Both the position numbers and the translations under genes were made by a program. From positions 237 to 64,236 of the forward strand of contig NZ_AOLY01000002.1 of assembly GCF_000336635.1 (NCBI RefSeq): 64,000 nucleotides of DNA. Direction: 5' to 3'. Each line of letters starts with the position of its first letter. Positions within the stretch are counted from its first letter, which is position 1. The DNA is from Haloarcula japonica DSM 6131 (GTDB taxonomy: Archaea; Halobacteriota; Halobacteria; Halobacteriales; Haloarculaceae). The notes under the pieces are model-generated. The model ran no database searches. It saw nothing but the letters and a program-made list of their open reading frames with translations, and was not told the origin of the DNA. Positions 3,360-44,661 of this stretch are shown here, piece by piece.

Positions 3360-5102
3360 TTACTCCAGTGCGTCCAGACGGAACTCGAACGCGGCGACCG
3401 GCAGTTCCAGGTCGTGCTCGACGAGCACTTTCGGGTGAATCTCGCCGATGACGCCGACCGACTCCCCGTCGAGGACCACTTCGGCGGCGCGGCCACCGAT
3501 GAACGACGGATGTGTGGTCGGGGGCGTTTCGAGGTCCTTGTCAAAGGCGTCTGCAAGGGCCTGCAGGCGGGCCTTCGCGTCCTCGTAGGAGGCATCCGTG
3601 CGCGCGAGCGCGGCAGCGACGGTACGGTGTTCGGCGACACCGGTGTTCTCGGAGTCGTCAAGACCCGCGGCCAGTCCGATCTCGGCGAGGTCCTGCGGGT
3701 AGCTCCGGTGGGTGTTGTTCTCCAGCACCATCATGATGGAGGGGAGCGCCCACGTCCGGAGGATGGTGTAGTCCTCGCTGTAGGGCTCCTGAATGGTGAC
3801 CGGGTCGGCCTGGCCGACGACATCCCCACCCGTGTTATCGGGATCCAGCTCCATCCGCTCGAAGTTCTCGGCCTCGTTTATCATGTGGAAGTTCAGCAGG
3901 TCCTCGAAACCCAGGCCAACGAGCGCATCGCGGGCGGCGTCTTCAAGCCGGGACCGCTCGTGGCGGCCGCCGACCGTCGACACGTCGGGATACGTCGGTT
4001 CGAGGCTGTTGAACCCGAGCGCCCGGCCGATGTCGTCAATGATATCCAGTGGGTGGATGACATCGACGCGGTACGGCGGAACCTCGACTTCGTAGGCCAT
4101 GCCGTCATCAGATTCGGTTTCGGTGGCGTCGAGGCCGGCGCGCTCGGCGTAGTCGATGACCTCGCGGCTGTCCAGCGAGACGCCGAGGATGGACTCGATA
4201 CGGTCGTGGGTGACCGTCTTCGTCCGGACCGAGAAGTCCGGCCGTTCCAGCGTCTTGCCGGCGTACTCCCCAGGCGCGTCGTCAGCGTAGGACACGTCGA
4301 CCTTCTCGACCTGTCCGCCACGGGCGGCGAGCGCATAGCAGACGATGTTACACATGTGGTCGATGGTCCACTGGTCGGTCCCCGTCATCTCGATGAACAG
4401 ATCCCGGGAGTCGACGCTGACCTCTGTCCGGCGGCCGTTGATAACTGGCGGGAACGAAAACAGCCCGATGGCGTCGTAGATAGCTGGAGTGCGGTCGAAA
4501 TCGGCCACGAGATCGCCGTACGTCTGACCGGTTTCGTGGGATTCCATGACCTCGCGAGGGGTCATCTCCGCGTCGGCATCCAGCGGGACGAACGTAGCCT
4601 CACCGGGGTCAGCGCTGGTGTAGGTGATGGACTTGCCCGTCTCGTCCGTGACCGAGTCGCCTTTCAGCATTGTGAGGTCGTGAACCCCAATCGCGCCTTT
4701 CGCCCGCTTGCGACCCATCGTCGCGTGAAGTTTCTCCTGCAGTTGGATGAGCGATTCCAGTGCAGCCTCGTCCATGTCGAGGCCGCGGACGATAGCGCCG
4801 GTGACGTACGGGCGCTCATCGGGCTGGTCCTCGACCTCGATGCTCCAGTCGGCGCTGTTCGTGTTGGGGATCTCCACCCCGCGGTCGTCGGCGTAGTGGT
4901 AGCGAAGCGACCGCGCGACACCCTCGACAGAGAGGCGGTCCAGTCGGTCCGGCGCGAACTCCAGCTGGAACTCGTCGTCCTCGGTCCAGCCCTCGAATTC
5001 GAGGCCGAGGTTGAACAGGTCCGATTTGAGTTCGTCATCGTCTTTCTCGTCGTGGCCGGTCAGATACCGAAGTTCATCGGGGTCGACGTCGACGACTGGC
5101 AT
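3360..5102 (-). CDS. pheT: Phenylalanyl-tRNA synthetase, beta subunit
   Basis: 580 aa, the length of the archaeal/eukaryal-type beta subunit. It starts MPVVDVDPDEL and has the conserved block RGLDMDEAALESLIQLQEKL followed by GRKRAKGAIGVHDL (about 125-145), a B5 domain, and a C-terminal pseudo-catalytic core ending in GEIHPKVLVEHDLELPVAAF. With PheS it forms the alpha2/beta2 enzyme that charges tRNA-Phe. The start codon overlaps the pheS stop by one base (TAATG), a sign of translational coupling. The gene ends 54 nt from the convergent RDD gene. Confidence 0.95.
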   Translation of the reverse strand: MPVVDVDPDELRYLTGHDEKDDDELKSDLFNLGLEFEGWTEDDEFQLEFAPDRLDRLSVEGVARSLRYHYADDRGVEIPNTNSADWSIEVEDQPDERPYVTGAIVRGLDMDEAALESLIQLQEKLHATMGRKRAKGAIGVHDLTMLKGDSVTDETGKSITYTSADPGEATFVPLDADAEMTPREVMESHETGQTYGDLVADFDRTPAIYDAIGLFSFPPVINGRRTEVSVDSRDLFIEMTGTDQWTIDHMCNIVCYALAARGGQVEKVDVSYADDAPGEYAGKTLERPDFSVRTKTVTHDRIESILGVSLDSREVIDYAERAGLDATETESDDGMAYEVEVPPYRVDVIHPLDIIDDIGRALGFNSLEPTYPDVSTVGGRHERSRLEDAARDALVGLGFEDLLNFHMINEAENFERMELDPDNTGGDVVGQADPVTIQEPYSEDYTILRTWALPSIMMVLENNTHRSYPQDLAEIGLAAGLDDSENTGVAEHRTVAAALARTDASYEDAKARLQALADAFDKDLETPPTTHPSFIGGRAAEVVLDGESVGVIGEIHPKVLVEHDLELPVAAFEFRLDALE

Positions 5103-6889: not shown

Positions 6890-8539
6890 TCAGTCTGCAC
6901 TCGTCGGCGCGCGGTCGGAGTCGAGGTCGATGTCGAGTTCGTCGAGTTTGTCTTCCCACTCGGCGCGTTTCTCCTGGTGGTCTTCGAGGAACTGTTCCAT
7001 CAGTTCGGCAGCCTGTTCCTTGCAGCCGCCACAGAGACGCTCGCCGCCGACACACTCGTCATAGACCTCTTTCGCGAACTCGTCGTCGTCGCCCGAGAGC
7101 AGGTAGGCGTACAGCTCGTACACCGGGCACTCGTCGGCCTTCCCACCTTTCTCGCGCTGTTCCTCGGCTGTGGAGCGACCGCCAGTAGTCGCCGATTTCA
7201 CTTTGTCGTAGCCGTCCTCCGGGTCGTCCAGCAGCGAGATGTGGGAAGCTGGAATCGACGAGGACATTTTGCCGCCGGTGAGGCCGGTCATGAACCGGTG
7301 GTAGATCGACGACGGCGGCTGGAAGCCGTAGCCGCCGTTGTCGAGTTCGACCTGCCGGGCCAGTTCCTCGGCCTCGGCGTGGTCCAAGTCGAACGTATCG
7401 ATGTGTTCGTCGTACACTCGCTTCTCGCCGTCGATAGCCTCGATGAGTGCCTCGAAGGCCACATCAGTGGCGTTGCGGTCGAGGAACCGGATCCGCGGCC
7501 GGAGCGGTTCCTTCCCCGCCTCGTCGAGTTTCGCGACGACGGACTGGCGGGCGTCGGCGGGCGCTGGCTGATGGTCGCGCAGCCAGTCGGCGGCCTCGCC
7601 ACAGCGGGGCCGGTCGGCATCCTCGGCGTACTCCTCACGGGCGTCGTAAGCCTGCCGGAGCAGCGTCCGCTCAACCGAATCTGCTTCGAAGCTGGCGAAG
7701 GCCTCCGTCACGCCGAAAAAGCGCATCCGCGCGGCGAGGTCCCGCGCCAGCCGCATGTGCGGGTCTTGGTCCGGGCCGACGGGGATGACCGTTGGCTTCG
7801 GCTCGTCCAGTTGCGGATAGAGGATGTCGGCCATCTGGGTGACCACCGACTGCATGTGCGAGACGTCGGTCTCGCCGTCGAAATCGTAGATGGCCTGCAG
7901 TTCCGAGAAGTTCGCCTCGGCCCCGAGTTCGAAGGCGAGGTCCTGCACCGCGCGGTTGTCGGACTGGCGGTACAGCGTCCCCTCGTCGGGGTCGAAGCCC
8001 AGCGCGAGCAGGGACAGCAGGTAGTTCGTCGCGTGCTCGTCGATCTCGTCCCACGACAGCCCGCGGGCGCTGTGGGCTTCGAGGTCCGCGATGAGCGCGT
8101 AGGCGTCCCCGCCCTGCTGCTGGTGCCAGATGATCTCGTCGAAGACGAGCTTGTGGCCGATATGGGGGTCGCCGGTCGGCATGAACCCCGACAGCGCGGC
8201 GAAGGGGTCGTCGTTGCGCATCGCCTCGGCGACCGGTCGGTAGTCCCGGTGGCCGAAGATGACGCCCCGCCGCATCAGGTAGTGGGGGTTAGGGACCTCG
8301 GAGAGCACCTCGTCGAACTCTTCGATGCCGAACTGCTCGAACAGCTTGCGGTAGTCGGCGATAGTCGAGGAGCCCCACGGGTCGAGCGTTGCCTCGTCGG
8401 CCCCCTCGGCCTCAGTGCCGCCGTCCGGTAGCACTGGGTTGCCGCCGGAGCGGGCGTCAGGCTCCCGCCACGCTCCGCCCGACTGGCGGCGGTCCTCGTC
8501 GGGCGATGCGTCGTCGTGGTGGGAGTCGTCCGTTGTCAT
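6890..8539 (-). CDS. trpS: Tryptophanyl-tRNA synthetase
   Basis: 549 aa class I synthetase that charges tRNA-Trp. The HIGH signature is PTGDPHIGHKL (about residues 118-128) and the KMSKS signature is GGKMSSSIPAS (about 418-428). A Cys-containing C-terminal element (CVGGERLCGGC, about 492-502) could bind metal. The first ~60 residues are an acidic, low-complexity extension (DDSHHDDASPDEDRR) common in haloarchaeal proteins. ATG at 8539 is chosen; reading further upstream to 8701 overlaps endA and gives an unlikely Arg-rich head. The gene lies 131 nt downstream of endA. Confidence 0.94.
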   Translation of the reverse strand: MTTDDSHHDDASPDEDRRQSGGAWREPDARSGGNPVLPDGGTEAEGADEATLDPWGSSTIADYRKLFEQFGIEEFDEVLSEVPNPHYLMRRGVIFGHRDYRPVAEAMRNDDPFAALSGFMPTGDPHIGHKLVFDEIIWHQQQGGDAYALIADLEAHSARGLSWDEIDEHATNYLLSLLALGFDPDEGTLYRQSDNRAVQDLAFELGAEANFSELQAIYDFDGETDVSHMQSVVTQMADILYPQLDEPKPTVIPVGPDQDPHMRLARDLAARMRFFGVTEAFASFEADSVERTLLRQAYDAREEYAEDADRPRCGEAADWLRDHQPAPADARQSVVAKLDEAGKEPLRPRIRFLDRNATDVAFEALIEAIDGEKRVYDEHIDTFDLDHAEAEELARQVELDNGGYGFQPPSSIYHRFMTGLTGGKMSSSIPASHISLLDDPEDGYDKVKSATTGGRSTAEEQREKGGKADECPVYELYAYLLSGDDDEFAKEVYDECVGGERLCGGCKEQAAELMEQFLEDHQEKRAEWEDKLDELDIDLDSDRAPTSAD

Positions 8540-8670
8540 GGATGTGGTCGGCTCGCGGTGAGCCACGTTACAGGTGCTTTGGTTCCGGTCGGCGCAAAAA
8601 GGGTTCGTTTCGGTGCGCCGACCGGACCGGCCAACAGACACCAACCGGCCGACCGCGACACGCAGCCAAC

Positions 8671-9681
8671 TCAAGGGGTCAGTCGCTCGACGGCGATCCA
8701 CTCGATGTCGCCGTCACCGCCGTCCGTCGTGAGCGCGAACACCATCGTCTTCCGGACACCGTGGGCGAGCCGCACGTCCAGTGCGAGGTCCCGCGGTTCG
8801 AACCGGTGGTCGTGCGGCAACACCCGGACCAGTAGCTCCGAGTGCCCGAGGTTTTCGGCACTTTCGACGTCGGCGTAGGTCCGGAAGTCAGCGCCGAATT
8901 TGAAGCCGGTCTTCGGCGCGACGCCGCTTGCTCGCAGGGCCGCATAGACGGTCAGTCGGCGGTCGAAGCGGTCGCCCTCGACCTCGCGGCCCCGCTCGAC
9001 AACAGCGTCAGCCCCGCCATCCACCGTGAGCAGCCCTTCCTGTGTGAGATACGCAGCCTCTACGAGCGAGAGTTGAACCGCGCCCTCGTCGCCGAGTTGC
9101 TGCCCGTAGAACGCCTGATCGTACAGCTCCGCCGGCGGTTCCCAACACACCACCCGCTCCCCGAGCAGTTCACCCGCCGTCGCTGGGACAGCAGCGTCAC
9201 TGGTCCCGGAGACGTCACGCCGGTCGATGTCGAGGTAGGTGACCTCGCTCTCCTCGTCGACGACCGCCAGCACACAGTCGCCCAGATCAGTGGCCACAAC
9301 TGTGTCACGCTCACCAACTATCCTGACGCGATAGGCTACCTCGTTGTCCCACGGCCCCTTCCCACGCGGGTAGACCACGAAGTCCGCGCCTGCGGCGTCG
9401 TCGACCCATCCCTCGCGGGCCGGTGTGAGGTAGAAACCGCGATCACGAAGGTCTTTGTAGACGGCGAAGTCCACCTCGGAAACGGCCGCAGACCCGAGGA
9501 ACGCCCGGAAGTCCATGCCGTCGATGCTCTCGATGTCCCCGCGATAGAGGAGGTGTGCGGCCTCCACCGGTGCCAGGTCGATATCGCCGTTGCGGACTTT
9601 CCCGTACCCGCGAGAGTCGTAAAACCGCTCGCGCGCCTCGTAGCCGGCCCGCACGACATCGCCGTCGAGCGTCAGTTCCAT
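8671..9681 (-). CDS. endA: tRNA-splicing endonuclease
   Basis: 336 aa, about twice the single-domain EndA length, i.e. the tandem-repeat form that works as a homodimer. It cuts bulge-helix-bulge introns in tRNA and processes pre-rRNA. The C-terminal half carries the catalytic triad: Tyr in ADFRTYADVE (about 268), His in NLGHSELLVRV (about 279) and Lys in HGVRKTMVFAL (about 310). The N-terminal half keeps the fold (DFAVYKDLRDRGFYL) but lacks a complete triad. ATG at 9681 gives MELTLDGDVV, the usual start. Next to trpS: in haloarchaea, intron-containing tRNA-Trp is a well known EndA substrate. Confidence 0.94.
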   Translation of the reverse strand: MELTLDGDVVRAGYEARERFYDSRGYGKVRNGDIDLAPVEAAHLLYRGDIESIDGMDFRAFLGSAAVSEVDFAVYKDLRDRGFYLTPAREGWVDDAAGADFVVYPRGKGPWDNEVAYRVRIVGERDTVVATDLGDCVLAVVDEESEVTYLDIDRRDVSGTSDAAVPATAGELLGERVVCWEPPAELYDQAFYGQQLGDEGAVQLSLVEAAYLTQEGLLTVDGGADAVVERGREVEGDRFDRRLTVYAALRASGVAPKTGFKFGADFRTYADVESAENLGHSELLVRVLPHDHRFEPRDLALDVRLAHGVRKTMVFALTTDGGDGDIEWIAVERLTP

Positions 9682-9763
9682 GCTCTGACGTGGCCCCCGC
9701 GGCGACAAAGCCCCTGCGGGTCCGAACCGGGAGCGAAGTCGGACGGGGGCGGAGAGTCAGTGC

Positions 9764-10486
9764 TCACTCCCGTTCTGTACAAGAACGGTCCAGACACCGC
9801 GTCCCGCCAGCGGTTTCGAACAGCGGTAGGCCGCAGTCACAGTCGCCGACGACCACGCCGGACGGTATCGAGAAGCCGGTGTCACAGTCGGGATAGTGTT
9901 CACAGCCGGCGAGCAGGCCGCCACGGCGGAGAATCAGCAGGTCGCCGTCACAGTGGGGACAGTCCCACTCGCGGTCAAAAGCCGCGGTGACGGCATCATC
10001 GAGCGAGTCACACTCTCGGTCGAGACACAGTTCGAAGGCTCGGCCGCGTTCGACACGAAGCGTCGGGAGTCCGCAGTCGTCACAGCGGCCGCCAGTGACC
10101 GCGGCATCGCTCGGAATCCCATAGGCGGCGTCACAGCCGGTACAGGTGACTTCACTCCGGGCCCGGACCAGCGTTCCGGCGCAGTCGGGGCAGTCACGCA
10201 CCGGGACACCGGCGTTCGAGGCCGGATAGCGGGCACTGCCGTGTTCCTCGTGGGTGACCACCCGGAGGAGTTCGTCGCCGTCGCGGGCGGTCACCGCCCC
10301 GTCGTCGATGGTGACACTTTCAGCGCGTGTAAGCCATGCAATCGGCTGATACCCCGCGGCATCGTGGACCAAGACGGTGTTGTCGGGCTTGATCACCACG
10401 AGCACGTCGCCGCGCTGTTCCCGCTCGCGCGTTCCCTCGAAAACGGTCGTACACTCGCCGGCCATCACACGGATTCCGTCATGCAT
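9764..10486 (-). CDS. NucS-type N-terminal domain fused to four zinc ribbons
   Basis: 240 aa. Residues about 8-85 resemble the N-terminal domain of NucS/EndoMS encoded at 43942-44661: both have a G-x-CTxxxEG block, a KPDxxxLVH block (IKPDNTVLVHDAAGYQPIAW here) and a DDGxxxxR block. The RecB-like nuclease domain is absent. Instead there are four C4 zinc-ribbon units, roughly CPDC..CTGC, CDDC..CLDREC, CPHC..CEHYPDC and CDC..CLDRSC, like those at the C-terminus of bacterial topoisomerase I. I infer a DNA-binding, probably non-catalytic protein. It lies 82 nt upstream of endA on the same strand. The ATG at 10486 is used; a second Met lies eight codons in. Confidence 0.8.
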   Translation of the reverse strand: MHDGIRVMAGECTTVFEGTREREQRGDVLVVIKPDNTVLVHDAAGYQPIAWLTRAESVTIDDGAVTARDGDELLRVVTHEEHGSARYPASNAGVPVRDCPDCAGTLVRARSEVTCTGCDAAYGIPSDAAVTGGRCDDCGLPTLRVERGRAFELCLDRECDSLDDAVTAAFDREWDCPHCDGDLLILRRGGLLAGCEHYPDCDTGFSIPSGVVVGDCDCGLPLFETAGGTRCLDRSCTERE

Positions 10487-10726: not shown

Positions 10727-13700
10727 ATGGATCTGAAGATCAAGCTAATAGTTCTTCTTCTAACAATTTCGCTGGTACCGCTAGCCGGTGTCGGATTGCT
10801 ATCGGCCAACAGTATGGGAGAGCTGAATCAGGACGCCCAGACCCAGAGCGGGAACTACCTCCGGGGGGCGATGACCGATCAGCTGAACAACAGCGTCGAA
10901 GCGAGACAGGAAGGCATCCAGAACCAAGTGAACCAGCGCGAGGTCGACGTCCGGTCGCTGTCGGACTCCTCGACGATGGACAACTACCTGGCCGCACAGG
11001 ACGGCGAGATGGAGCTCGTCCAGGAGTCGAGCCAGCGCCAGCTCGGGTACACGTCCCTCCAGATGCGCACCAGCATCGACAACGCGATGCAGATGGTGCT
11101 GGAAAAGCAGTACGACGGCCGGGACTGGGAGGACCTCTCCTCCTCGGAACAGGAGCAAGTCAAACAGGAAGTCGAGGCGATGATCGGCGGGACGGCCGGG
11201 GACCAGACGCGTCCGGCAGGAACCATGTACGACTCGTTCCAGCCCGGCTACTTTGGTAATACGGGATACGCGTACATCACTGACAGCGATTCCAACGTCG
11301 TCGTCCACCACAGCCTCGACGACGGCCACAACCTCGTCGAGGACAGCGGCGGGACGCTGGTCGTCTTCGAGGATATCGAGACCGAAGTCGAGTCCAACCA
11401 GGCGATCCGCAACGGCGAGGAGTGGGGCATCGCCGAGTACGAGTGGGAGGATACGACCCAGGAGGGGAACCCCGAGATGACGAAGTTCATCGCCTACACC
11501 TACTACGAGCCCTTCGACTGGGTCATCGCCCCGAGCGTCTACTACTATGAGCTTCAGGAGACTGCGGTCAACGACGCCGAAAGCGAGATGGCGGATTCGT
11601 TCGAGCGGTACCTCTTGACGCGGACAGTCACCATCGGTGACGAGGAACACCTGGCGTATGAACACATCACGTTCGCGGGGCCGAATGGTGACGAAATCCT
11701 CCACGCTGACCGGACGGGCCGGAACGTGACGACCGGCTCGGACAGCTCGCAGTCATACGCCGATGCGGACTGGTTCACCGCCGCGAAGTCCGGGAGTCAG
11801 GGCGAGGCGTACTTCGGTGAGGTTCAGACTTCGGACGGCCATGAAACGCAGTATGTCTCCACGCCAGTCTACAGAAACGGGGAGTTCCGAGGCGTCGTCG
11901 CGGCACAGTTCAACTACTCGCTCATCACGGAGACGACGAACCGTGTGACAGTCGGTGAGAGCGGCTACCTCTACATCCTCAACGACCGCGGTGAGATAGT
12001 CAGCCATCCGGAGAGGGCCATGATCGAACAGCGAACGAACGTTCCGGAGGGCGAGTACGGTGCGGAGCTCGGGACAATCGCACAGAATCAGATGCTCGCC
12101 GGTGAGTCGGGGATGACAACCCATACGAAACAGGGCGAGGACGGGGAAAACGCAACGAGCTACGTCGGCTTCGCGCCGCTCGAACTCGGCGATAAGCAGT
12201 TCACCCTCGTCGCCACCGTCCCCGAACAGGACATCAACGAACCGATAGCGGCGCTGGGCGCAGCGCTACAGCGTACGACGGACTCCGCACAGACGCTCGT
12301 CATCGGGCTGTTCGGCCTCGCAGCGGTCGTGGTCTCGGTGACCGGATACGCCGCGGCCAGGTATATTTCGAGGCCGATCGAACAGATCCGCGACCGGGCG
12401 ATGGCGCTGTCGAAGGGCCAGTTCGACCAGACTGACGATATCTCGACCGGCGACGACGAGATCGGTGAGATGGTGACGGCCTTTGAGGAGATGCAGGCGA
12501 ACTTGAATCGGCAGGTCGACCAGATCGAATCCGTCAGTGACTCACTCAGAGAGGGGGATCTCGACGACGAGATCCAGACCGACATGCCCGGGAAGTTCGG
12601 TGAGATCATGGAGGGGCTCGAAGACGGAATGATCCAGCTCGGAGCGAGCTTCACCGAGATCAGCCGAGCGAGCCGGAACATCCGTGCCGGAGAGCTAAAC
12701 CAGGACCTCGACACCGACCTGCCCGGTGACTACGGCGAGGTCATGAACGAACTCAACTCCGGCCTCACGCAGCTTTCGGAGAGCTTCGAACAGCTCCGTG
12801 ACGTGAGCGCGGACCTCCGGGAGGGACACCTCGACCAGAACCTCGACACCGACCTGCCCGGGGCCTACGGCGACGTCCTCGCAAACATCGACGAAGGCCT
12901 CGACGCAGTCGACGAAAGTATCGCAAAGGTCCAGTCGATCGCACAGGACGTGAACGAGGCGAGCCAGGAAGTCGCAGCGAGTACAACCGAGATCGAGGAG
13001 GCGAGCCAGGAAGTCGCCAAGTCGGTCCAAGAGATATCGAGCGGGGCCGACACCCAGTCCGGCAACCTCCAAGAGGTCGCCAATGAGATGAACGACATGT
13101 CGGCGACCATCGAGGAGATAGCATCCTCGTCGGTCGACGTGGCCGACACAGCCCAGGAAGCGGCCAAGCGAGCGCAGATGGGAAGCGAACAGGCCGCCGA
13201 GGCGTCAACGGAGATCCAGGAGATCGAGGACGGCGCCGACGACGCGGTCGAGCAGGTCTCCGACCTCCAGACGGAGATGGAGGAGATCAGCGAAATCGTC
13301 GCGATGATCACCGACATCGCCGAACAGACGAACATGCTCGCACTGAACGCGTCTATCGAGGCCGCCCGGGCCGGTGAGGCCGGCGAAGGCTTCGCCGTTG
13401 TCGCCGACGAGATCAAGTCCCTCGCAGTGGAAGCCGGCGAGGCGACCGAGGAGGTCGAGTCGCTCATCACCGAGATACAGAACTCGACGGACGAGACGGT
13501 CGACGACATCGAAGCGATGCGCGACCAGGTCGAGAGCGGCGTCGAGACGACCGAGAACGCCATCGACCTGTTCGACGAAATCGCCGAGGTCGTCGACGAG
13601 GCCGAGAGCGGCGTCACGGAGATCAGCGACGCCACGGACGAGCAGGCCGCCACCACCGAGGAGGTTGTCGCGATGGTCGACGAGGTCAGCAGCGTCAGCG

Positions 13701-13915
13701 AGGAGACGGCCGCTGAGGCGAGTAACGTCTCGGCCGCCTCCGAGGAACAGTCGAGTTCGCTCACCAGCGTCTCCGAGAACGTCCGGTCGGTCGCCGGCCT
13801 CGCGGACGACCTTGAGGACCTGGTCGACGAATTCGAGGTCAGCGACGACACGGACGCGACCGAACAGGACTCAATGGACATCGGCGAGACCGGTCCGGCG
13901 GCTGTGGACGATTGA
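10727..13915 (+). CDS. Transducer (methyl-accepting chemotaxis protein) with poly-HAMP
   Basis: 1062 aa Htr-type receptor. Layout: transmembrane helix 1 at about 6-27; a large extracellular sensor of about 490 residues with two Cache-like parts ([20 protein letters not shown] near 180, and [20 protein letters not shown] near 412); transmembrane helix 2 at about 523-545; a HAMP domain; three exact 45-residue HAMP-like repeats starting at residues 601, 646 and 691 (each with REGxL/RAGEL and DxDLPGxYGEV); then a long signalling coiled coil whose hairpin tip carries [20 protein letters not shown] (about 865-885). It should modulate CheA activity in chemotaxis. The ligand is unknown; the Cache domains suggest a small extracellular molecule. 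Confidence 0.92.
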
Positions 13916-14044
13916 TTGACACGCGAACACGAAATCATCGCGTACGTCCGGGATTCACAATCGGCAGTTGCTGACAGCGACGGTATCGGCATATCGCTGC
14001 CGGAGTCGCAACAGCCAAACCAATCGCCGAGCGACAGGGAGGCA

Positions 14045-14701
14045 ATGAGCCAACCACCGGCGGCGGTCTGTTTCGATATGGACGGCGTGCTCGTCCAGTC
14101 CGAAGATCACTGGGTCCGCGCCCAGCGTGGGGAGATTCTCCCGACAGCCGCACCGAACGACGATATCCCTCTGTCCGCGATTACCGGTCGAAACTACCGA
14201 GAAGTGTATCCGGACCTCGACGCCGAGTACGACCTCGAAATCAGCCGAGAAGCATTCGAGGGACTGTTCGAGAAGCACGGCGAACGGATTTACGGCGAAG
14301 AAGCGACCTTCCTCGATGGGGCACACGAACTGCTCGACGATTTGCGGGACGCTGGCGTGGCGCTGGCGCTGACGACATCCGCGCCGTGGGCTTGGATCGA
14401 TGTGGCCGACAAGCGCTTCGATCTCCTCTCGAAGTTCGACGTCGCCATCAGCGCCGGCGACATCGACGGCCCCGGCAAGCCGGAGCCGGACATCTATGAG
14501 CGGGGTGCGGCAGAACTCGGCGTCGCGCCCGAGGACTGTTGGGCCGTCGAGGACTCCACCGCAGGCGCACGCGCCGCCGTCGCCGCCGGGATGACGACCA
14601 TCGGGTTCCGCGGCGACGGTGATGAGACTGACCTGTCGATGGTCCACGAGATCGCGGACGACGCCGCGTCGCTGCGACAGGTGCTGTTAGGCGGTGTGTA
14701 A
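14045..14701 (+). CDS. HAD superfamily phosphatase / beta-phosphoglucomutase-like
   Basis: 218 aa. Motif I is CFDMDGVLVQSEDHW (about residues 8-22) with the nucleophile Asp and the general acid two residues later; motif II ALTTSAP gives a Thr-Ser; motif III Lys lies in GPGKPEPDIYERGA; motif IV is the acidic EDSTAGARAAVAAGM. A helical cap lies between motif I and II, typical of subfamily I HADs that act on sugar phosphates, phosphoglycolate or similar. The exact substrate cannot be read. ATG at 14045 is preferred; the open frame extends to 13916 but that part is not conserved in character. Confidence 0.85.
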   Translation: MSQPPAAVCFDMDGVLVQSEDHWVRAQRGEILPTAAPNDDIPLSAITGRNYREVYPDLDAEYDLEISREAFEGLFEKHGERIYGEEATFLDGAHELLDDLRDAGVALALTTSAPWAWIDVADKRFDLLSKFDVAISAGDIDGPGKPEPDIYERGAAELGVAPEDCWAVEDSTAGARAAVAAGMTTIGFRGDGDETDLSMVHEIADDAASLRQVLLGGV

Positions 14702-15354: not shown

Positions 15355-17754
15355 TTACCGAACGAGAACGGACCGGGTTTCGGTAATCGTCGGGAGCGGC
15401 AGCGCGGGGAACGCGACTTCGACAGTGAAAGTGAGTTCGTCCGCGTCCGCGCCGAAGACAGCGACCGGAAGCGTGGCTTCGCCGAGATACGACGGCTTGG
15501 CGGTCATCTCACGCCCGTTGACCGTGACTCGCAGGCCCGCCCGGGCGCTCCCGCCGGTGTTTTCCACCGTTACCTCCCGCATGTCGTTGTCGCCGGGGGC
15601 GATTGTCTCGGGGAAATCGCCCCAGTCGATGGAGACGACGGGGAGGTCCCGCGCGTTCGCGAGCACCTGTTCCGCGACGCCCTCGGAGAGCCCCGCACGG
15701 ACGAGGCCGTCCTCGCCGGCTTCGACCACATCGGCGGGCGACGTGAGTCCCGCTGCAGCGAGTTTCCCTGCGCGGCCGCTGCCGACGCCATCGATAGCCG
15801 TCAGCCCCACCGCATCGGCGCTGATACCGTGTTCGACGCGGGCCTCGACCCGGCAGGCCAGATTCGCGTAGCGTGCCGGCCCGAGCGTGTCGACGAACTC
15901 CCGCATCGCGGCTAGCAGGCGAAGGGCGTTCTGGCGGATGACCCACGCGTCGCTTTTCAGTTCCGTCGGCGTCGTCCCGGTCATGCCCGAGCGGAGGATG
16001 GCCAGTACCTTCCGCTGGCCGGCGTCGAGGCTGTCGTCGACGCTGTCTCCCAGGACCGCGTGAACCGCATCCTCCTCGTCGGAGCGGGCGCTGACGCTGT
16101 CGAACTCGGTTGCGCCGGCCACCGCCGTCAGCAGGTCGTCCGCATCAACGGAGACAGCCGAGTCGGGGTCCGCGGCGTCCTGACACCGTTCGGCGACGTC
16201 CGCGAACCGGCGGGCGGTCGACAGCCGAAGGTAGAATTTCGAGGCCAGTTGGCCGAGCCGCGTCGGCTCGACGTTGAGGCCGTCCTGCTCGACGAAGCCC
16301 TCGTCGACGAGCGCCGAGAGCGTGTCGCTGACCCTGTTTCGGAGGTCGCTGCCGGCGTCGTACTCGTCGGGAGCCGACTGCGAGCGGGCGTAGTAAAACG
16401 TCGTCGCGAGCCAGTCCATCACGTCGTCCACGTCGTCGATAGTCCCGAGCGCGATTTCGGCGTTCAGGTGGGCGTCGAGTTCCGCCGCCAGCCGTGACTC
16501 TATCTCCTTCCCGTCCCGGAGCAGGCGGCGGTACTTGTCGGCGTCCGAGCGGTCACAGACGACCCAGGCGTAGCCCATGTCGTCATAGCCGGGCCGGCCC
16601 GCGCGGCCGAGCATCTGGAGCACGTCGAGCGGGCTCATGTCGACCTCGCCTTCGAGCGGGTCGTGGAGTTTGGTGTCGCGAATGACGACACAGCGGGCGG
16701 GGAGGTTCACGCCCCAGGCCAGCGTCGAGGTCGAGAAAAGGAGCTGAATCTTGCCCTCTTTGAACCACTGCTCGACTTTGTTCTTGTCCTCCCGTGCGAG
16801 GCCGGCGTGGTGAAAGCCCACGCCGTCCAGCACGGACTGGCGGAGCGTGTCGTTCGAGAGGTCGGCGGCGTCGTTGTGGAAGTCGTAGTCCCCGCGTGCG
16901 CCCATGGGGATGTCGCGCTCGGTGATCTCGTCGCGGGCCTTCTTTGCGGCCTGCACCGTGTCCTGGCGGGAGGAGACGAACACGAGCGCCTGGCCCTCCT
17001 CGCGGATGTGTGGCTCGGTGAGGTCGAGCGCCCGGTAGAGCCGCCGGTACTTGTCGGCGAAGGCGTTCTCGCCGTGGGAGTAGGTCTTCACGTCGGCGTT
17101 GAGCGGCACCGGACGGTACTTTTCGCCGAAAGCGAACGTGGTTTCATCCGGCGCGTCGAGCCAGTCGGCCACGTCGTCGATGTTCGGCATTGTCGCCGAC
17201 AGCGCCACGACGCGCGGGTCACAGAGCCGGCGGAGCCGCGAGACGGTGACTTCGAGCACCGCCCCCCGACGGTCCGAGTCCAGCAGGTGGACCTCGTCGA
17301 TGACACAGCAGTCCACGTCGGTGATGAACGAATAGCGGCTGGTTTCGTGTTTCCGGGTGGCTGAGTCGGCTTTCTCCGGCGTCATCACGAGGATATCGGC
17401 CCGCTCGGCCCGGCGGGGATTGAGGTCCCGCTCACCGGTGACGACGTAGACGGAGTAGCCCAGGTCTTCGAACCGCTCCCACTCGCTTTCCTTTTCGTTT
17501 GTGAGCGCGCGCAACGGTGCGAGAAAGAGCGCGGTCCCGTCCTCGGCGAGCGTCTTGCAGATGGCCAGTTCGGCCAGCGCGGTCTTCCCGCTGGCCGTCG
17601 GCGCGCTGACGACGACGTTGTCGTCGCGGTTCAGCAGGGCCGGCAGGGCCGCCGACTGCATCCGGTTGAACTCCTCGAAGGGGAAGGCGTCGGCGAATTC
17701 GGGGAGCACCTCCGCGACCGCCACAGTCGGTTCGCTGTCGGTTCGGGATGACAC
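15355..17754 (-). CDS. hel308: Hel308-type Ski2-like DNA helicase with beta-rich C-terminal tail
   Basis: 799 aa superfamily 2 helicase. Motif I SAPTASGKTALAEL is at residues 50-63, motif II DEVH near 150, motif III ALSATMPN near 187, and motif VI QMLGRAGRPGYD near 385. A winged helix and ratchet region follow, then a helix-hairpin-helix (AIDGVGSGRAGKLAAAGL, about 650-668). Hel308 proteins unwind lagging-strand DNA at stalled forks. After about residue 705 there is an extra ~95-residue segment (ITVENTGG-like pattern VTVENTGGSARAGLRVTVNG, ending TETRSVLVR) that looks like an immunoglobulin-like CARDB fold. I use the GTG at 17754; the in-frame ATG at 17826 would add 24 Cys/Pro-rich residues. 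Confidence 0.88.
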   Translation of the reverse strand: MSSRTDSEPTVAVAEVLPEFADAFPFEEFNRMQSAALPALLNRDDNVVVSAPTASGKTALAELAICKTLAEDGTALFLAPLRALTNEKESEWERFEDLGYSVYVVTGERDLNPRRAERADILVMTPEKADSATRKHETSRYSFITDVDCCVIDEVHLLDSDRRGAVLEVTVSRLRRLCDPRVVALSATMPNIDDVADWLDAPDETTFAFGEKYRPVPLNADVKTYSHGENAFADKYRRLYRALDLTEPHIREEGQALVFVSSRQDTVQAAKKARDEITERDIPMGARGDYDFHNDAADLSNDTLRQSVLDGVGFHHAGLAREDKNKVEQWFKEGKIQLLFSTSTLAWGVNLPARCVVIRDTKLHDPLEGEVDMSPLDVLQMLGRAGRPGYDDMGYAWVVCDRSDADKYRRLLRDGKEIESRLAAELDAHLNAEIALGTIDDVDDVMDWLATTFYYARSQSAPDEYDAGSDLRNRVSDTLSALVDEGFVEQDGLNVEPTRLGQLASKFYLRLSTARRFADVAERCQDAADPDSAVSVDADDLLTAVAGATEFDSVSARSDEEDAVHAVLGDSVDDSLDAGQRKVLAILRSGMTGTTPTELKSDAWVIRQNALRLLAAMREFVDTLGPARYANLACRVEARVEHGISADAVGLTAIDGVGSGRAGKLAAAGLTSPADVVEAGEDGLVRAGLSEGVAEQVLANARDLPVVSIDWGDFPETIAPGDNDMREVTVENTGGSARAGLRVTVNGREMTAKPSYLGEATLPVAVFGADADELTFTVEVAFPALPLPTITETRSVLVR

Positions 17755-17912
17755 GTCACAGTCGCAGTTCCGCGACGGCAAAGGCGTTTCTATGGGGGAG
17801 CGACAGTGTGTGAGAAGCGGATGCATTCTCTGGCTTCGCTGTGCGGTTCATCAGTGTGAGTGTCCAACAGACCTGGCAAAAAATTAACTCAGCCGGCTGA
17901 TAGTGCGCAGGT

Positions 17913-43941: not shown

Positions 43942-44661
43942 TTACGGTGGCTCCAGCGAGACGAACTCCAGTCCTTTCTCGGCGAGCAACTGACGCGCCC
44001 GGTCAGTCACCGACGGAGCGACGAGGATACCCCGGACTTCAGTGTCGGCGTGCAGGTCGCGTTCTAACGCATCGACGTACCGGCCCAGCTGGCCGACTGC
44101 GTCGGGACCCACACGCCGGCGCTTGAGTTCGAGTATCGTCGTCCGGCCGTCGGCGTCCTCGCCATAGATGTCGACCGCGCCGGCGGGAGTCTCGCGCTCG
44201 GTCGCAAGCGGCGTAAAGCCCGACTCGACCAGCCCCGGTTCATCAAGGATCCGGTCTTTCAGGTCAGCCTCGGTCCCGGTGAGCGCGAGGTCTTTCGAGT
44301 CGGTCACGTCGAAGGCGGCGGCGTGAGCGACTGTCTCAAAGGTCACTTCGAGCAACTCCTCGGGGGTCGACCGCGTGGAGCGGACGACCAGCGACCCGTC
44401 GTCGACGCTGATGCTGTGTTCACAGCCCGGCGGTTGCCAGTTCACCGGTTGTTGGCCCTCGTCGGTGTGGACCAGCGCGGCCCCGTCGGGCTTGAGCATC
44501 ACGTGGCGGTCGCCAAGCCCCAGCGAACTGGCCGCTCGTCCCTCGTACTCGACCGTACAGGTACCGACGAGCGTCACCAGCGCGCCGCGGTCGGCGTTGC
44601 GCGACGCGAGGTCCAGCGCGTCAGCGGGGTCGGGGTACGTCAGTGTCTCGACGGCGGTCAC
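43942..44661 (-). CDS. nucS: Endonuclease NucS/EndoMS
   Basis: 239 aa. The N-terminal DNA-binding/dimerisation domain has LVTLVGTCTVEYEGRAASSL and HVMLKPDGAALVHTDEGQQP. The C-terminal RecB-like nuclease has GAVDIYG (catalytic Asp near 161), ILELKRRRVGPDAVGQLGRY (Glu-x-Lys near 180, Gln near 191). NucS (EndoMS) cuts both strands at mismatched bases and is tied to the sliding clamp. The C-terminus FVSLEPP lacks an obvious extended PCNA peptide. The start is GTG at 44661, 9 nt after the upstream gene's stop. mutS lies about 1.2 kb away. Confidence 0.93.
   Translation of the reverse strand: MTAVETLTYPDPADALDLASRNADRGALVTLVGTCTVEYEGRAASSLGLGDRHVMLKPDGAALVHTDEGQQPVNWQPPGCEHSISVDDGSLVVRSTRSTPEELLEVTFETVAHAAAFDVTDSKDLALTGTEADLKDRILDEPGLVESGFTPLATERETPAGAVDIYGEDADGRTTILELKRRRVGPDAVGQLGRYVDALERDLHADTEVRGILVAPSVTDRARQLLAEKGLEFVSLEPP

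Follow-up and report, generated by a model that had tools for sequence, protein, structure and literature searches.

A nuclease-free NucS-type head with four C4 ribbons in haloarchaea and its putative partnership with an SF2 helicase

A NucS-type head and four C4 ribbons in one gene

We analyzed a window of 64,000 nucleotides from Haloarcula japonica DSM 6131, and the features discussed here are listed in Table 1. Residues 5-88 of the encoded protein match Pfam NucS_N (PF21003) with an E value of 1.7e-8 (34.7 bits; cut-off 23.9), and residues 175-207 match Zn_ribbon_Top1 (PF01396) with 33.5 bits (cut-off 32). The RecB-like PD-(D/E)xK nuclease domain of NucS (NucS_C, PF01939) gave no Pfam match in the 240-aa protein, and the single NucS_C match in the whole genome lies at NucS itself. 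Catalytic topoisomerase domains likewise gave no Pfam match in the protein at E <= 1. The architecture of NucS_N plus C4 ribbons follows from Pfam and can, in that sense, already be annotated. The gene is followed on the same strand by endA, 76 bases downstream, and then by an ORF (6890..8701) that we take to be trpS, as named in the original prediction.

Table 1. Features of the window that are discussed in the text
Feature	Coordinates	Strand	Basis or remark
trpS-like ORF, tryptophanyl-tRNA synthetase	6890..8701	-	true start may lie inside the ORF
endA, tRNA-splicing endonuclease	8671..9687	-	NCBIfam NF006794, 546 bits (cut-off 383); synteny
Head and four-ribbon gene, 240 aa (NucS_N head, four C4 ribbons)	9764..10486	-	ORF list, Pfam, BLASTP, profile-profile comparison
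Ribbon 4, C216-C218...C231-C236	9779..9841	-	Cys pattern, family alignment
Ribbon 3, C176-C179...C195-C201, Zn_ribbon_Top1	9884..9961	-	Pfam PF01396, Cys pattern
Ribbon 2, C135-C138...C154-C159	10010..10084	-	Cys pattern, family alignment
Ribbon 1, C99-C102...C115-C118	10133..10192	-	incomplete in 5/60 members
NucS N-terminal PH-like head, residues 5-88	10223..10474	-	Pfam PF21003, predicted head structure
Htr/methyl-accepting transducer ORF, separating the gene from the helicase	10727..13915	+	named by eye
HAD-family hydrolase, between the helicase and the gene	13916..14701	+	HAD gene in the same gap in L098
Putative partner: single-cassette SF2 helicase (Brr2/ASCC3/Hel308 type), 823 aa, without head or tail	15355..17826	-
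NucS/EndoMS proper, comparison protein	43942..44661	-	NucS_C 108 bits; NCBIfam NF003270, 348 bits (cut-off 216)

The original prediction had described the C-terminal part as four ribbons of topoisomerase type. The four ribbons and their cysteine pattern are indeed there, but ribbon 3 is the single one to exceed a Pfam cut-off by itself. Because the other three fall below it, the label "topoisomerase type" rests on ribbon 3 and the cysteine pattern. The family profile additionally picks up long ORFs that have the size of a topoisomerase; unlike topoisomerase I, the protein has no topoisomerase catalytic domain and its ribbons are doubled as a two-ribbon unit, the tail being a tandem duplication of that unit (hhalign probability 98.5).

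Family counts were made on 60 members, each from a different genome (L011-L070), and the window's own family supplies half of these; seven further loci (L004-L010) were left out of these counts because their genomes are near-copies of those of L011-L070. Residues K33, D35, H41, D42, G45, Y46, P48, W51, L52, T53 and R54 of the head are invariant in the 60 members, and all 16 ribbon cysteines are present in 54 of them. Ribbon 1 is incomplete in five members (L057, L058, L062, L069 and L070) and therefore seems to be the least needed of the four ribbons. A member in genome G056 (locus L090, gene at 3931-4467 of the locus) has a 231-aa frame in which the match skips approximately residues 134-191, and seems to be a natural variant in which the number of ribbons is reduced. 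Two short pieces, G136:C1:2451773-2451880 (in L091) and G117:C3:232994-233092, lie near a full gene and are 45-56% identical to approximately residues 3-38, as would result from a duplication of the head's 5' part.

The spread of this nuclease-free protein, a question raised by the original prediction, turned out to be wide. The gene is present in 285 of 292 Halobacteria genomes; two of the other seven have no match and five have weak matches only, and a profile search of these seven genomes gave nothing beyond fragments, which lie in ORFs as long as those of NucS or topoisomerase. The gene thus belongs to the haloarchaeal core and is not peculiar to the Haloarcula genome studied here. A mobile or viral origin was also considered and rejected: tblastn against 72,556 plasmid and 50,697 phage records found no match, and the 109 stretches of viral contigs that fit the pattern include no relative of the gene.

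Relation of the head to NucS/EndoMS

The comparison gene in the window is a genuine NucS, as had been proposed, by both of the scores given in Table 1. BLASTP aligned the protein with this NucS at 36% identity over 76 residues (E 2e-9, a value for that one comparison only). An hhalign comparison of 28 family heads with 23 NucS heads gave a probability of 98.9 (E 1e-17), above background; one NucS row, cut to 62 residues in the head tree, was left out of it. The head profile scored a probability of 99.1 against the helicase-fused and HRDC-linked heads described below, and EndoMS and NucS were the sole PDB matches of the family profile at E <= 0.01.

The predicted fold agrees with the profiles. 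The best of five head-only structure models has a pLDDT of 74.8 (the other four, 63.6-43.6). Foldseek ranked EndoMS/NucS first to fifth for this model (E 4.6e-3 to 1.3e-2), and VIA against the PDB gave EndoMS/NucS with Z scores of 8.2, 8.0 and 7.9, the next match being at 6.0. A full-length model, built with 8 close sequences, had a mean pLDDT of 43.6 and was not used for the ribbons. The head is thus the same domain as the N-terminal domain of NucS/EndoMS (PF21003; PDB 2vld, 5gke) by profile and predicted fold, and the original prediction that a NucS head is re-used here without its nuclease holds: the PD-(D/E)xK domain is missing, with C-terminal ribbons in its place.

In PMC7343888, Y41, N76 and W77 of EndoMS are described as binding mismatch bases. 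Profile alignment places these residues at F16, A50 and W51 of the protein. Among the 60 members, the tryptophan is kept in all 60 and Phe or Tyr is found at the tyrosine position in 46, whereas the asparagine occurs in none and is replaced by alanine in 57. The head can probably still stack on a base, as inferred from these residues, but would read the base differently.

A tree of the heads contains three supported clades, namely the family (98/94), NucS (97/94) and the heads of archaeal family f19 (98/95). The tree has a midpoint root only, and its clade order does not tell whether the family heads are nearer to the helicase-fused heads or to NucS; we therefore do not claim that the family heads descend from the helicase-fused ones. 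Some haloarchaea (G003, G010, G070 and G024; L116, L117, L121 and L122) have a second, divergent NucS with a PVNWM motif, and these sequences form one clade (100/99).

A helicase in the same window and its fused orthologs

The window also contains an SF2 helicase 4.9 kb upstream of the gene, an association that the original prediction missed. The gap is filled by the HAD hydrolase gene and the transducer ORF, the latter occurring in only some Haloarcula-family loci. The helicase resembles Hel308 in its DEAD, Helicase_C and Sec63/HhH domains, and shares 33-44% identity with the Hel308-like matches found in the same genomes. However, it falls below every NCBIfam cut-off for Hel308-type equivalogs (378.5, 285.8, 264.6 and 253.7 bits against cut-offs of 887, 891, 1216 and 1200, respectively), and the genome has a Hel308-like match of its own besides (G000:C2:86359-87942). 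The best PDB profile matches are to the Brr2/ASCC3/Slh1 group, with 418 and 425 bits for the single cassettes of ASCC3; Hel308 reaches 369 bits. Unlike Brr2 and ASCC3, the helicase is archaeal, has one cassette and not a tandem double cassette, and is bare in haloarchaea. By these profile scores, it is a single-cassette relative of both ASCC3/Brr2 and Hel308.

We searched the family profile over the phylum (392 genomes). In one related archaeal family (f12), the four-ribbon tail was found in long ORFs in all 7 genomes (E 1e-35 to 1e-37), and the ORFs that we read are helicases of approximately 970-985 aa ending in this tail. In the three of the seven that were compared, the match to the tail keeps all 16 cysteines, at 37.5-42.6% identity over 141-144 residues. 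The fused gene is split between contigs in one f12 genome (G333). In family f19, the C-terminus of the orthologous helicase in G308 consists of a NucS_N head (29.4 bits) and an HRDC domain (71.3 bits), and by eye the helicase of G317 has the same kind of layout, with a NucS_N-type head and an HRDC-type end; a NucS-type head thus sits on the helicase in 2 of 4 f19 genomes. The f12 and f19 helicases are orthologs of that of the window, with 43-46% identity to it. Among 40 genomes (28 families) outside Halobacteria, the helicase ortholog was found in nine, seven of f12 and two of f19, and the remaining 31 gave matches of at most 37% at that length. The f12 helicases carry the tail only and the f19 helicases the head only; no fusion with both was seen.

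Two other f19 genomes (G299 and G326) encode a protein of NucS_N-HRDC type but no orthologous helicase, and therefore such a head can exist without the helicase. G299 may be Methanocella arvoryzae, in which case f19 would be Methanocellaceae. Stand-alone NucS_N-type proteins without nuclease were seen at L086:3880-4686 and L088:3713-4552, in two f19 genomes that lack the helicase ortholog; the HRDC domain of the L086 protein scores 48 bits, and the L088 protein is alike by eye. These Methanocella-type proteins share the nuclease-free NucS-type head with the haloarchaeal protein, and such a head sits on the same helicase in G308 and G317, but they have an HRDC-type end where the haloarchaeal protein has ribbons.

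Gene order, co-occurrence and the putative role of the protein

We determined the position of the helicase in 39 genomes that hold the gene. Upstream and in the same direction, it lies no more than 150 bp away in 8 genomes, 1 kb away in 15, 3 kb away in 20 and 20 kb away in 29. In any orientation, it lies within 20 kb in 31 of the 39 genomes, where about 0.5 would be expected, and in the other eight it is more than 80 kb away or on another contig.

The gene's linkage to endA is at least as tight. The tRNA-processing setting (endA, trpS) pointed out by the original prediction does exist and is conserved: the gene is followed immediately by endA in 55 of 60 flanks, and in 26 of 30 among diverse loci. 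The fused helicase-ribbon gene of f12 also adjoins endA, here divergent. In f12, the fused helicase gene has endA on one side and, on the other, a convergent pair of genes for an XPB helicase and a DUF790 protein (L080:1025-3935). The two linkages can be lost separately. G006, G014 and G066 have no endA in the 1.5-kb flank, whereas their helicase gene is close, at 450, 127 and 777 bp upstream, respectively; in G042, G213, G239 and G136 endA is near the gene and the helicase is not. Since the endA and helicase linkages erode independently, gene order alone does not choose between the two partners; the fusions do.

This bears on the alternative that the protein is an RNA-binding accessory of tRNA splicing or of a translation-linked process, together with EndA and TrpS, and that the helicase is an RNA helicase. 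The conserved endA neighborhood, in haloarchaea and beside the f12 fusion, speaks for it, as does the higher score of the helicase profile against the ASCC3 cassettes than against Hel308, since ASCC3, Slh1 and Brr2 are RNA-linked helicases. However, the fusions are to the helicase and none to EndA was seen, the helicase stays close in the three genomes without a flanking endA, both the head and ribbon 3 have their nearest known relatives among proteins that bind DNA, and the other neighbor of the f12 gene, the XPB-DUF790 pair, is of DNA repair type. We consider this RNA role unlikely, though a serious contender.

Co-occurrence in the 292 genomes gave 285 with both genes, four with the helicase only (G180, G002, G183 and G129), none with the gene only and three with neither; the last three fall in two families, so that few independent events are counted. 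The four helicase-only haloarchaea indicate that the helicase can do without the gene. Together with the helicase-free head-HRDC type protein of f19, they would be compatible with a free-standing single-strand or junction binder that acts independently of the helicase, the linkage being merely that of an old operon. Two different fusions to the same helicase, and the lack of any genome among the 292 with the gene and no helicase, make such a binder improbable.

A role in competing with NucS or modulating it at mismatches and branches, part of the original prediction, would be in keeping with the homologous head and its tryptophan, kept in all 60 members, but has very little probability, given that 2 of 17 haloarchaeal genomes searched (G044 and G136) have the gene and no other NucS-type match, that G129 has NucS without the gene, that the asparagine of the mismatch pocket is nearly always alanine and that NucS lies 34 kb away in the Haloarcula genome. 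The sensor or adaptor role named in the same prediction fits our data.

Our preferred reading, to which we give a probability of about two in three, is that the protein is a separately encoded substrate-recognition subunit of the neighboring SF2 helicase. The putative partnership itself is well supported by inference from the fusions, the gene order and the co-occurrence. In this model the NucS-type head, with its conserved tryptophan and usually an aromatic partner, would stack, at a junction, on a base that is either extruded or terminal, and the four TopA-like ribbons would hold the adjoining single strand. The protein would then position or load the helicase there through physical contact, and would not cut, because no nuclease domain remains. 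The substrate would be DNA rather than RNA, for which we see only slightly better odds. Several points weigh against a helicase subunit: four genomes have the helicase alone, G299 and G326 have head-HRDC type proteins and no helicase, the link to endA is just as strong, and the head tree does not order its clades.

A more far-reaching version of the subunit model, which we regard as speculative and rather doubtful, is a two-piece haloarchaeal helicase, composed of a single-cassette archaeal Brr2/ASCC3 relative and a detached targeting subunit with a mismatch-nuclease head and topoisomerase-type ribbons. Surveillance of nucleic acids may be linked through it to the operon's genes for tRNA splicing and charging, as a prokaryotic counterpart of ASC-1/RQT-like helicase complexes. 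The portions of the open-access literature on NucS, Hel308 and Brr2/ASCC3 that we covered contain no description of the protein or of a helicase partnership, which is not to say that none is in print.

If the protein is a helicase subunit, a near-universal haloarchaeal gene would gain a concrete partner and role. The protein shows the base-reading head of NucS in a setting other than nucleolysis, and one and the same helicase carries a NucS-type head in some genomes and this ribbon tail in others. That helicase, a single-cassette relative of eukaryotic Brr2 and ASCC3, has itself been little described. Since Haloferax and Haloarcula can be manipulated genetically, the model is directly testable in them.
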